Shown one piece after another: positions 3,341 to 63,990 of a stretch of 64,000 nucleotides of DNA. Within the stretch, counting starts at the first letter, position 1. Each line of letters opens with the position of its first letter. The notes under the pieces are model-generated. The model saw nothing but the letters and a program-made list of their open reading frames with translations. It searched no databases and had not been told where the DNA came from. Position numbers and translations under genes: made by a program. This DNA is from Henricia sp. BOLD:AAB3569 (Eukaryota; Echinodermata; Asteroidea; Spinulosida; Echinasteridae), in the NCBI GenBank assembly GCA_037783545.1, contig JBBELK010000402.1:558001-622000 (forward strand), in the 5' to 3' direction.

Positions 3341-4215
3341 GAGAAGAATTGGGCTCATAGGGAAAACCTGAGGGAGTATACCACTGTGCCTCATACCCGG
3401 TAGCTCGGTTGGTAGAACATTTACTGGATGAGTCAGATGTCGTGGGGAAAACCTGAGGGAGTATACCACTGTGCCTTAGAGCTCAGCTGGTAAAGCATCT
3501 GCTCGATGAGTCAGGGGTCTTGGGGAAACCTGACGGAGTATACCGCTGTGCCTCATAGCTCAGCTGGTAGAGCATCTGCTCGATGAGTCAGGGGTCTTGG
3601 GGGAAAACCTGAAGGAGTATATCACTGTGCCTCATAGCTCAGCTGGTAGAGCATCCGCCTAGTGTGTCAGAGGTCTTGGGGAAAAACCTGAGGGAGTAGA
3701 CCACTGTGCCTTATAGCTCAGCTGATAGAGAATGTGCCTGGTGAGTCAGAGGTCTTGGGGAAAGCCTGGGGGAGTAGACCATTGTGCCTCATAGCTCAGT
3801 TGGTAGAGCATCTGCCTGGTTGTCACAGATCTTGGGAGAAAACCTGAGGGAGTACATGTAGATGTACATTTGTATACCATTGTGCCTTATAGTTCAGCTG
3901 ATAGAGAATGTGCCTGGTGAGTCAGAGGTCTTTGGGAAAACCTGAGGGAATAGACCATTGTGCCTTATAGCTCAGCTGATAGAGAATGTGCCTGGTGTGT
4001 AAGAGGTCTTGGGGAATACCTGAGGGAGTACACATGTACATTTGTATACCACTGTGCCTCATAGCTCAGCTGGTAGAGCATCTGCCTAGTGTGTCGGAGG
4101 TCTTGGGGGATACCTGAGAGGGAGAAGACCACTGTGCCTCTTCGATGAGCTGGTAAAGCATCTGCCTGGTGTGTCAGAGGTCTCGGGTTCGAATCCCGAT
4201 AAGGACCCTACGATT
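3341..4215 (+). repeat. tRNA-derived tandem array 1 (about 10 units)
   Basis: Units begin TGCCTCATAGCTCAGCTGGT at about 3387, 3472, 3549, 3628, 3707, 3785, 3883, 3961, 4055 and 4135, so spacing is mostly 77-85 bases with two longer units carrying extra TACATGTA sequence. Each unit has a D-arm (AGCTCAGCTGGTAGAGC, containing an A box), a degenerate anticodon arm (TCTGCCTGGTGTGTCAGA) and then GGTCTTGGGGAAAACCTGAGG in place of a T-arm, followed by the linker GGAGTATACCACTG. Units are noticeably diverged, suggesting an older array than that at 62891. ORFs read through it are by-products of the repeat. Confidence 0.85.
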
Positions 4216-6139: not shown

Positions 6140-6450
6140 CCTTTTCTCACTAGAATGTCAAACCCTGGGGCGAACTCTTCCTGGGGCCACCCCGGGTTGT
6201 CGTGCGATTTGTAACCCCCGAGTTCAACCTCGCGTCTTTTTACACTTGTCTTTCTCAAACCACACCTATTTCGCTCCCGGGGCAGGGGGGTAGGGAGGGG
6301 GCAGAGCTCGCCCCGGGGATTGGCACCCTGGTTTCCCGCTTGAGGAAGTCGAACCCCGGGGCGAGCTCCTATCAAGTATAATTTCTCGTCATTCTGTCCA
6401 GTTTTAGTTCCTTTTGTATTTCGTCGTCCTCCCAAGATTTGGACTTGTTG
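6140..6450. repeat. MITE-like fragment with CCCCGGG/CGAACTC words
   Basis: Begins GGCCTTTTCTCACTAGAATGTCAAACCCTGGGGC-like sequence and ends GGACTTGTTGGAAAGGCCTT. Interior GGGGCGAACTC and GAACCCCGGGGCGAGCTC blocks resemble elements at 9567-10243 and 25205-25530. The ends are only approximately complementary; boundaries are uncertain. Confidence 0.4.
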
Positions 6451-6454
6451 GAAA

Positions 6455-6790
6455 GGCCTTAAAGAATAATGTTGATAAACTGCCTTTTAGAAATTTTAGC
6501 CACATAGATGCAGTAATACTTCTGAAAACCTTAAAAATCCATGCATGGTTTTTGTATTGAATAAATAGTAAACAAAAATCGTTTTCAAACGATTTTAAAA
6601 GAAAAGATACCATTTTACAAGGGGAACAAATCATGTGGTGTTTGTTTGTTGTATGTTCGTTTTCATCGAGTTTCGAAAGTTTTGAGTCAAAATGTCAAGT
6701 TTTCGAGTTAAAAATGGCAGATTTCGAGTCAAAAATTTCAGTTTTTAAGTCAACTCATGAAGTAAAATTTTGGGTCACTTCAAATGATGT
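6455..6790 (+). repeat. Family C dispersed repeat
   Basis: AATAATGTTGATAAACTGCC, CACATAGATGCAGTAAT and CCATGCATGGTTTTTGT recur at 45961-46210, in reverse at 15295-15395 and in reverse at 32045-32300. This copy is uninterrupted at the point where a 527-bp element sits in the 45-kb copy, so it serves as the empty site. Confidence 0.6.
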
Positions 6791-7245
6791 AATTGGGCCT
6801 TTAACTTTTGCTAGGATTGTCAGGGGAGTGGGAAGATTAGGGCCTACATGTAGACCTAAACAAGGCCATCTGGCTGAACAATAAAACAAAGAGAGTACAT
6901 GATGGGTTCTGACACTGCCAAACTCCCCCTCACAATTTGGGCAGAGCGCAGCCTCTGGGGTTATTTTTTTTTTTTTTTAGTTTTAGCTGTCTGACATTTG
7001 GTAAATGCTCGGAATGCACCCTTGACGTGGAAAAGAACCCAAATCTAAACAAATTATACCCCTCCATCACTCTTCGAGTCTTCTGCTGCAGAGACGAAAA
7101 CATAATCTGCACCTTTTTGACAGTAATAAACAACACCGAGCATTTTTGATCAAAATGTATTTTTAAATTTATTTTCCAGAATGTTTTCTTTAGAGTACAT
7201 TTGCTGTAGGGCAATTCCACACATAGGAATCTTCTTTTTTTTTTT
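6791..7245. other. No recognised feature apart from poly-T runs
   Basis: T-rich runs at 6964-6979 and near 7235. Nothing else recognisable. Confidence 0.5.
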
Positions 7246-33439: not shown

Positions 33440-34395
33440 GTTTCCCCCCCCAAGACCTCCGACAGATGCTCTGTAACAGCTGAGCTATGAAGCACAGTGG
33501 TATACTCCCCCTGCAGGTTTTCCCTAAGACCTCTGACACACTGGGCAGATGTTCTATAACAGCTGAGCTATAAGACACTTCGGTGTACTCCCTCAGATTT
33601 CCCCCAATACCTCTGCCTGACTCACCAGGCAGATGCTCTACCAGCTGAGCTATGAGGCACAGTGATATACCCCCTCATGTTTTCTTCCAAGACCTCTGAC
33701 ACATTGGGCAGATTCTCTACCAGCTGAGCTATGAGGCACAGTGGTATACTCCCTCAGGTTTCCCCCAAGACCTCTGACACACCAGGCAGATGCTCTATCA
33801 GCTGAGCTATAATGCACAGTGGTATACCCCTCGGGTTTTCTTCCAAGACCTCTGACACACTGGGAAGATGCTCTACCAGCTGAGCTATGCGGCACAGTGG
33901 TATATACTCCCTTAGGTTTTCCCCAAGACCTCTGACACACCAGGCAGATGTTCTACCAGCTGAGCTATGAGGCACATTGGTATACATCAGGTTTTCCCCA
34001 AAAATCTCTTACACACCGAGCAGATGCTCTACCACCTGAGCGATAAGGCACAGCAGTATACTCCCTCAGGTTTTCCCCAAGACCTCTGACACGTCAGGCA
34101 GATTCTCTACCAGCTGAGCTATATGGCACAGTGGTATATTCCCTCAGGTTTTCCCCCAAGACCTCTGACACACCGGGCAGATGCTCTACCAGCTGAGCTT
34201 GGATATAAGGCATAGTGGTATACTCCCTCATGTTTTCTCCAAGACCTTTGACACATCAAGCAGATGCTCTACCAGCTCAGCTATGAAGCACAGTTGTAAG
34301 TCCCTCAGGTTTCCCCCAAGCCCTCTGACAGACTGACACACCAGGCAGATGCTATCCCAGCTGAGCTATAATGATGAGGCACAGTGGTAATCTTG
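33440..34395 (-). repeat. tRNA-derived tandem array 2 (about 12 units, minus)
   Basis: The complement of the array 1 unit repeats about every 78-80 bases: CAGCTGAGCTATGAGGCACAG blocks near 33480, 33562, 33645, 33724, 33805, 33885, 33962, 34038, 34117, 34195, 34277 and 34365. Between them lie TATACTCCCTCAGGTTTTCC and AAGACCTCTGACACACCAGG. Read on the minus strand each unit has the D-arm, anticodon-arm relic and GGGGAAAACCTGAGG hairpin. Units differ at many positions (CTGAGCGATAAGG, CTGAGCTTGGATATAAGG), so it is as degraded as array 1. No B box at its downstream (left) end. Confidence 0.85.
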
Positions 34396-46452: not shown

Positions 46453-46633
46453 AAAATTTATTTTATTTCTTTGGTATAGCCTACTTTTTGACACCTTATA
46501 TTATTGATTTATTAAATCACGCTGTAAAAATAGTGGCCTCACGTTTTGACCCTATAGAGTCTTCAAAGACAAATTTTTCGTAGAATTCGCCTGACACCAC
46601 TCAAAAAGATGACGACATCCTTGTGGAATTCAT

Positions 46634-46740
46634 TGGCGGATCCAGCCTCATTAAAATACAGAAATATACAGTGGATTTCGGGGGGCTGTAGCCCCCGCTT
46701 TTCTTTGTATTCCTGTATTTTAATGAGGCTAGATCCGCCA
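46634..46740. mobile_element. 107-bp palindromic MITE with TGGCGGATC ends
   Basis: TGGCGGATCCAGCCTCATTA at the left mirrors TAATGAGGCTAGATCCGCCA at the right, continuing through AAATACAG. TGGAATT occurs just outside each end (46624-46630, 46742-46748), a likely target duplication. Confidence 0.75.
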
Positions 46741-46904
46741 CTGGAATTTGTCTGCAAACTGTCTGGATTATAGCCGACTTGAGACAGAAATTTACCCTCT
46801 GGGTGTATTTTTTGTGTTGCACAGCCGAAGCTGTCATCGTGTTCGATCGCTGCATGTTATCATTTCAAAGGTTGCTTGGTATTTGCATACAGAGGTATGT
46901 TTTT

Positions 46905-47919: not shown

Positions 47920-48025
47920 GCCGAAATAGCTCAGTTGGGAGAGCGTTAGACTGAAGATCTAAAGGTCCCTGGTTCAAAACCCCCGGAGGACTCGCATGAG
48001 TTCTGAATTGTCCCGGGTTTCGGCA
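47920..48025 (+). tRNA. tRNA-Phe(GAA) with a 33-base insert in the T-loop
   Basis: Acceptor arms GCCGAAA (47920-47926) and TTTCGGC (48018-48024) pair fully, with A as discriminator. D-arm GCTCAGTTGGGAGAGC, anticodon stem TTAGA/TCTAA, loop CTGAAGA with GAA at 47953-47955 and the 5' T-stem CCTGG are standard for animal tRNA-Phe. After TTCAA the normal continuation TCCCGGG is postponed by 33 bases (47978-48010). The A box is intact, and GGTTCAAAACC across the junction still fits the B-box consensus. The insert can fold as GGACTC-GCAT-GAGTTC. Unless the insert is removed, the T-loop is disrupted; this may be a pseudogene or an unusual intron-bearing gene. No other tRNA-Phe is in the window. Confidence 0.8.
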
Positions 48026-48031
48026 GATATC

Positions 48032-48046
48032 TTTTTTCCTTTTTTA
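48032..48046 (+). terminator. RNA polymerase III terminator
   Basis: TTTTTT begins 7 bases after the tRNA discriminator, followed by CC and another T run. A T4+ run close to the 3' end is the normal Pol III stop signal and supports transcription of the whole 106-base gene including the insert. Confidence 0.7.
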
Positions 48047-49076
48047 AAATTTCTTGATTTGTTAGAATTTTCGTACATAAAGCTTTAATTTCAATGCACT
48101 TTTTTGTGGAAAGCTTTTTTTTGGTGTTTTTTTAGGACAAAATTGTGGGATTTTGTAAATAATCGCTGACAATGCCAAATCATAGGTGTCTGGCGTATTA
48201 GCAGAGGTTCGAATCCCGTTTGGGCACAAGCTACAGTGCTGTTTTTGATGAATCCTTGGTTTCAGTACCAGAAAGAATAAACACTAATAATTTACAACAG
48301 TGGGAATCTGTCAAGAGTAAAAAATAAAATCAACAGTTGCGTTCTTGTTGAGAATAGGCAAAATTCCATATTGGTGACACATGCGCGTAACGTCCCTAAG
48401 GACCACGGGAATCCTCACCCACCTCCGAGTGCCTACCCCATACATCACCACCAGACCATTTCCTGTCTACAAACCACGCGAAGACAAGTGGCTCATTCAT
48501 ACAGGCCTGTTTCACACGTGCTTCTAGACAAGCAGCGCGCAAACCGCGGACTCCTGCCCGGGTCCCACGGCACGGCAAGCCCGGGGTGTGCAGAGGTCGT
48601 GTCACGGTCGTTCCCCAGTTGGTTTTTTCTCAAGACACGTGTTGCACACGTGGGTGTGACTTTCCGCGCGTCTTTTGAACCGCATCTTGCGTGGATGTTG
48701 ATTTAAAAGAAAGAAGTATATTACACGACAGCTGTTCTCTCTTAGAGCCGTGCTGAGGCACATATGTAAAAATCACAATCCTGGGAAACATTTTCCTTTT
48801 TTTCTAAACTCTGTACCCTTATTTTTTTTATAAACTCCATTTTTTGTAAACCACACTATCACAATATCCGGCAGGTACAGGTGGCGCTAGATTTCAAACT
48901 CTAGACCATAGAGTACCTTTTTGTGTGTTGCCAAGGTTATTGGATCTACACTTTAATCAGTGAACTGTTTCCCTACACTTTAGCAATGGACGTTTCAGAT
49001 TACCAGCGAATTGTTTAGACGCAGTTATCCTGGCAACTGACGTCACACTTTAGTAGTATACAACCATGCGAAAGGA
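48047..49076. other. No gene; one B-box scrap
   Basis: GCAGAGGTTCGAATCCCGTT at 48202 is a tRNA 3'-half-like fragment without a partner 5' half. 48480-48690 is CpG-rich. No exon accepted. Confidence 0.4.
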
Positions 49077-62890: not shown

Positions 62891-63990
62891 TGAGGGAATG
62901 TACATTATAGCCTACCACTGTGCCTCATAGCTCAGCTGGTAGAGCATATGCCTAGTGTGTCAGAGGTCTCGGGGAACCTGAGGGAGTATACCACTGTGCC
63001 TCATAGCTCAGCTGGTAGAGCATATGCCTATGTGTCAGAGGTCTTGGGGGAACCTGAGGGAGTATACCACTGTGCCTCATAGCTCAGCTGGTAGAGCATA
63101 TGCCCGGTGTGGCAGAGGTTTCGGGGGAACCCGAGGGAGTATACCACTGTGCCTCATAGCTCAGCTGGTAGAGCATATGCCCGGTGTGGCAGAGGTTTCG
63201 GGGGAACCCGAGGGAGTATACCACTGTGCCTCATAGCTCAGCTGGTAGAGCATCTGCCTGTTGTGTCAGAGGTCTCGGGGGAACCTGAGGGAGTATACCA
63301 CTGTGCCTCATAGCTCAGCTGGTAGAGCATATGCCCGGTGTGGCAGAGGTTTCGGGGGAACCCGAGGGAGTATACCACTGTGCCTCATAGCCCAGCTGGT
63401 AAAGCATCTGCCTAGTGTGTCAGAGGTCTTCGGGAACCTGAGGGAGTATACCACTGTGCCTCATAGCTCAGCTGGTAGAGCATCTGCCTGCTGTGTCAGA
63501 GGTCTCGGGGGAACCTGATGGGGTATACCACTGTGCCTCATAGCTCAGCTGGTAGAGCATATGCCCGGTCTGGCAGAGGTTTCGGGGAACCTGAGGGAGT
63601 ATACCACTGTGCCTCATAGCTCAGCTGGTAGAGCATCTGCCTGGTGTGTCAGAAGTCTTGAGGGAAACTAAGGTAGTATACCACTGTGCCTTATAGCTCA
63701 GCTGGTAGAGCATATGCCCGGTGTGGCAGAGGTTTCGGGGGGACCCGAGAGAGTATACCACTGTGCCTCATAGCCCAGCTGGTAAAGCATCTGTCTGGTG
63801 TGTCAGAGGTCTTGTGGGAACCTGCGGGAGTATACCACTGTGCCTCATAGCTCAGCTGGTAGAGCATCTACCTAGTGTGTCAGAGGTCTTCGGGAACCTG
63901 GGAGAGTATACCACTGTGCCTCATAGCTCAGTTAGTAGAGCGTCTTCCTGGTGTGTTACAGGTGTTCAAGTCTAAAAGAGAAACACTTAT
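62891..63990 (+). repeat. tRNA-derived tandem array 3 (14 units)
   Basis: Unit starts (TGCCTCATAGC) at 62921, 62997, 63073, 63150, 63227, 63304, 63381, 63457, 63534, 63610, 63687, 63764, 63841 and 63917: spacing is always 76 or 77. Units at 63073, 63150 and 63304 look identical, so homogenisation is recent. Each has D-arm AGCTCAGCTGGTAGAGC, an anticodon-arm relic, a hairpin TTCGGGGGAACCCGA or TTGGGGGAACCTGA in place of the T-arm, and linker GGGAGTATACCACTG. The last unit ends GGTGTTCAAGTC, a B-box-like sequence. Long open frames through the array exist because the units lack stops, not because they encode protein. Confidence 0.9.

Follow-up and report, generated by a model that had tools for sequence, protein, structure and literature searches.

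Non-canonical tRNA introns that interrupt the T arm are known from algae, nucleomorphs and archaea, and where the available text of one review names non-canonical tRNA introns of eukaryotes, they are algal or nucleomorph (PMC4090602). In Cyanidioschyzon merolae, nuclear non-canonical introns occur in the D, anticodon and T arms, with hBHBh' motifs, processing intermediates seen by RT-PCR, and a T-arm intron at 53/54 (PMC9602550). The tRNA-Phe(GAA) gene of the sea star Henricia sp. described here is alike in the interruption of its T arm, but its insert lies at 58/59 and lacks a strict bulge-helix-bulge (BHB). The Guillardia theta nucleomorph carries non-canonical insertions of 3-24 nt, including some of 3 nt in the T arm; excision is described as confirmed by RT-PCR, and tRNA-Phe(GAA) is one of the genes listed there with two introns (PMC4090602). 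Nucleomorphs are remnant algal nuclei, whereas the Henricia insert measures 33 nt and belongs to a 741-Mb genome. Archaeal non-canonical introns (53/54, 56/57, 59/60 and others) include T-arm points close to 58/59, although they rely on BHB or related motifs and the archaeal endonuclease (PMC4090602). The same text also covers eukaryotic tRNA genes in which the D or T arm holds a short insertion; such a gene is mostly just one among many synonymous ones and is presumed to be a pseudogene (PMC4090602). The Henricia gene likewise has a short T-arm insertion, but the same insert stands at two loci. A search of titles and abstract openings found no T-loop or other non-canonical tRNA intron in an animal.

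Within the window (the whole stretch of 64,000 nucleotides that was analysed), the tRNA-Phe(GAA) gene with a 33-base T-loop insert that the preliminary description had reported is indeed present, and the insert separates tRNA positions 58 and 59 (Table 1) instead of occupying the canonical eukaryotic position 37/38. Exon 1 comprises the 5' strand of the acceptor stem, the D arm, the anticodon arm, the 5' strand of the T stem and the T-loop bases TTCAA. The boundaries are unambiguous because any shift alters the joined exons. Joining places TTCAA directly before TCCCGGGTTTCGGCA, giving the junction sequence TTCAATCCCGGGTTTCGGCA and the T-loop TTCAATC, the same as in the uninterrupted copies found in tandem arrays. 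With the insert set aside, the acceptor stem has 7/7 pairs, the D stem 4, the anticodon stem 5 and the T stem 5/5, one of these last being U:G, a result that bears out the earlier statement that every helix is intact; besides the insert, no helix decay was found in the window copy. The exons, which we take to resemble vertebrate tRNA-Phe, have as joined plain RNA a cloverleaf of -21.9 kcal/mol against a minimum of -23.6 kcal/mol, a difference of 1.7 kcal/mol. The B-box match and the T-run noted at the outset are also in place, the former judged by what we take to be the B-box consensus; simple arithmetic gives the NNCC needed to complete it a probability of about 1/16 in a random insert.

Table 1. 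Features of the interrupted tRNA-Phe(GAA) gene (window positions) and of the uninterrupted arrays.
Feature	Location	Strand	Remarks
tRNA-Phe(GAA) gene with insert	47920-48025	+	whole interrupted gene, 106 nt
tRNA-Phe(GAA) exon 1, 58 nt, positions 1-58	47920-47977	+	sequence reading, Rfam tRNA match, pairing
Insert, 33 nt, between tRNA positions 58 and 59 (T-loop)	47978-48010	+	
tRNA-Phe exon 2 (3' exon), 15 nt, positions 59-73	48011-48025	+	
Insert hairpin, 47987-47993 paired with 47998-48004	47987-48004	+	7 bp, one G:U
B-box-like GGTTCAAAACC	47971-47981	+	exon 1 end and first four insert bases
T6 run, possible Pol III terminator	48032-48037	+	
Long tRNA-Phe/tRNA-Ile-like arrays	C60 (places 3099114 to 3252118), C2003; L001-L008, L011, L012, L017-L032		

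The Rfam tRNA model gives the window gene 33 bits, with a match that spans model positions 8-63 of 71 and ends inside the insert; uninterrupted tRNA-Phe copies from this genome typically score 63.7 bits. ARAGORN reported no tRNA in the window, also with introns allowed. For a 35-base piece of the tRNA, 0 matches are expected by chance (100 shuffles).

A genome search for other insert-bearing tRNA-Phe genes found a second locus, and the insert is therefore not a one-off. Its 31-base core, with up to three mismatches allowed, occurs at three places in the genome (the window and contigs C250 and C1141), all exact, and the exact 15-mer of exon 2 occurs only at these three places. Since C250 and C1141 are colinear over ~30 kb, they are, on sequence comparison, most likely two haplotypes of one locus; their 20 matching pieces above 200 bp comprise 12 at 94-99% identity, one at 93% and seven at 84-88%, a set that includes four overlapping repeat matches. 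The idea of a single, recently disrupted gene is thus weakened, since a second locus also carries the insert and does so on each of its apparent haplotypes. Insert and exon 2 are identical between the window and both contigs (48/48 bases), in a comparison that covers the insert and 3' exon and in which the second locus shows no difference in the 15 tRNA bases that can be read there. The 33/33 identity of the insert rejects only divergence above ~9% (5% level), which leaves room for recent copying, and because the letters are the same, the copies give no covariation.

Similarity between the two loci hardly extends beyond the gene. BLAST extends the match from the insert and exon 2 into another 19 T-rich bases (93% over 68 columns). 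Compared in register, the flanks agree near chance, at 22/80 bases upstream and 27/80 downstream, and 60-bp local alignments of the flanks were not significant, being equalled by 75 and 86 of 500 shuffles. The five bases just upstream, GACAT, agree at both loci if the exon 1 run of the second locus has the length shown, and a T5 run stands there at a distance similar to that of the T6 run in the window. Neither 3' flank has a poly-A or CCA tail. A tRNA-derived SINE was considered and rejected, as the insert core occurs at three places only (up to three mismatches) and no tail was seen. Exact scans for the core in the viral_contigs and genome_contigs collections found nothing.

Taken at the level of sequence, these observations lead us to put first, with a probability of roughly 0.4, a small tRNA-Phe(GAA) gene family, of which two loci are seen, that carries one fixed, intron-like insert of 33 nt at 58/59. 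This retained intron-like insert stands at about even odds against a young duplicated pseudogene; in its favour are the intact stems, the occurrence at two loci and on each apparent haplotype, and the fact that the shared stretch barely exceeds the gene in length. Under the intron-like reading, Pol III would transcribe the insert-bearing gene, and the insert would fold into an extended T arm composed of the T stem, a CAA:UUG helix and the 7-bp hairpin, with both junctions at loop edges. A splicing endonuclease and a ligase could then excise it in the manner of a non-canonical tRNA intron, and the product would be a normal tRNA-Phe with the T-loop TTCAATC. That Henricia possesses a nuclear tRNA gene with a spliced T-loop intron at 58/59 is less likely than not.

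The insert hairpin described earlier is present, though with 7 bp instead of 6 (an extra A-U pair, and one G:U inside), and it is ordinary: shuffling almost the same sequence (33 bases, shifted by one) gave an equally good fold in 18 of 200 cases. The best fold that keeps the T stem joins CAA:UUG across the junctions around the 7-bp hairpin at -31.1 kcal/mol, 3.8 kcal/mol above the free minimum of -34.9 kcal/mol, in which insert bases pair with the 3' strand of the T stem and break it. Enforcing the acceptor, D and anticodon arms (-33.6 kcal/mol) leaves the same pairing and the T stem still broken. A strict 3-4-3 BHB, looked for at the junctions, was absent. A 4-bp GUUC:GAAU helix lies in the BHB register, with bulges of ~11 and 5 nt instead of 3, and the relaxed BHB fold (-25.8 kcal/mol) is weaker than the T stem plus hairpin alone (-28.3 kcal/mol); by modelling, a relaxed BHB is possible, yet it is not the most stable fold. 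Among 20,000 shuffled inserts, 5.4% allow such a 4-bp helix in the BHB register, 2.6% an adjoining helix of at least 6 bp and 0.18% both, in a test picked after the sequence was seen. The structure therefore permits splicing without demonstrating it. The departure from a strict BHB, the predicted lower-energy folds that break the T stem and the uninterrupted array copies argue against an intron. Furthermore, human TSEN34 is described as touching the elbow of D-loop and T-loop (PMC10539383), a contact that the insert would disturb, and this counts against the splicing reading.

Uninterrupted tRNA-Phe copies occur in tandem arrays. A 26-base tRNA-Phe 5' pattern with up to three mismatches has 555 places in the genome (88 + 467); among the roughly 100 matches listed, all fall on contigs C60 and C2003 and all have one mismatch. 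Similarly, 110 of the 114 matches to the window stretch are uninterrupted array copies on C60. The array unit of ~346-350 bp combines tRNA-Phe(GAA) with an oppositely oriented tRNA-Ile(GAU)-like gene. We counted 207 copies by an exact 21-base D-arm stretch; the loci overlap, so that many of the copies entered this count repeatedly. In each of the 207 the T-loop TTCAATC is uninterrupted, and T at position 5 stands opposite C at position 68 (a U5:C68 acceptor mismatch); canonical copies may exist elsewhere. The many normal tRNA-Phe genes elsewhere that the preliminary description named as evidence for a pseudogene are thus found in part, as uninterrupted array copies, but every copy read has the acceptor mismatch. 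The 3' ends differ as well, 200 of the 207 counted copies ending in TTCCGGCA and none (0/207) in TTTCGGCA, so that RNA reads from the arrays and from the insert-bearing gene would be distinguishable.

The window holds further repeats. Tandem arrays of a 77-79 bp unit occupy positions 3401-4187, 33463-34330 and 62913-63963, and another lies at 6304-6936 of locus L009; the unit holds a stretch resembling a tRNA A-box (TAGCTCAGCTGGTAGAGC) and is a tRNA-derived, satellite-like repeat, which Rfam did not call in the window at gathering score. At 46612-46761 lies a MITE-like foldback of ~150 bp. It resembles plant mir-172 and Wolbachia sRNA models, in both cases under the gathering score, and the likeness probably reflects nothing more than its shape as a hairpin. 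Downstream of the gene, another B-box-like stretch (GGTTCGAATCCC) at 48203-48230 has no tRNA body around it and may be left over from a tRNA-derived SINE; the nearby 48243-48297 matches loci L009 and L010. Pfam, run on 10 of the 47 listed open reading frames of the window, gave no match near the curated cut-off (best E 0.095).

The foremost rival is a tRNA-Phe pseudogene in which a 33-bp filler insertion arose and a unit of about gene size was copied to a second site, both copies being too young for decay. We regard this as well possible, if short of probable. Prior expectation and the mobility of tRNA genes favour it: supposed pseudogenes with such insertions have precedent, and tRNA genes are described as spreading like mobile elements and turning over fast (PMC4981973). 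The existence of uninterrupted arrays, the three arrays of a tRNA-like repeat in the window itself and an insert identity compatible with up to ~9% divergence also fit. Set against it are the same insert at two loci and on three contigs, a window copy free of pairing defects and a second locus unchanged in its 15 readable tRNA bases. Moreover, on both sides the copied unit must have ended no more than ~5 to 20 bases from the gene, and the 3' flanks lack the tails named above.

It is less probable, and in our view unlikely, that the insert stays in the RNA, either as a stable, tRNA-like molecule that has a long T arm and plays no part in translation or as a tolerated T-loop expansion. The retained B-box match and T-run would suit such an RNA, as would the stable alternative fold in which the insert pairs with the 3' strand of the T stem, but the folding energy is not unusual (z -1.41, equalled by 18 of 200 shuffles) and a retained insert would disturb the elbow between T-loop and D-loop. 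An assembly artefact is very improbable: three contigs carry the same insert, and two of these are colinear and apparently represent the two haplotypes of a single locus.

If the insert is not spliced, the locus indicates that a tRNA gene disrupted in its T arm can be duplicated and retained while showing no further visible decay. If the intron-like reading is true, introns outside the anticodon loop would be open to removal by the splicing endonuclease of an animal or by some other pair of nuclease and ligase. Splicing here would test the view that the animal enzyme positions its cuts by their distance from the body of the tRNA, and T-arm tRNA introns, known from algae, nucleomorphs and archaea, would then be known from an animal genome too.
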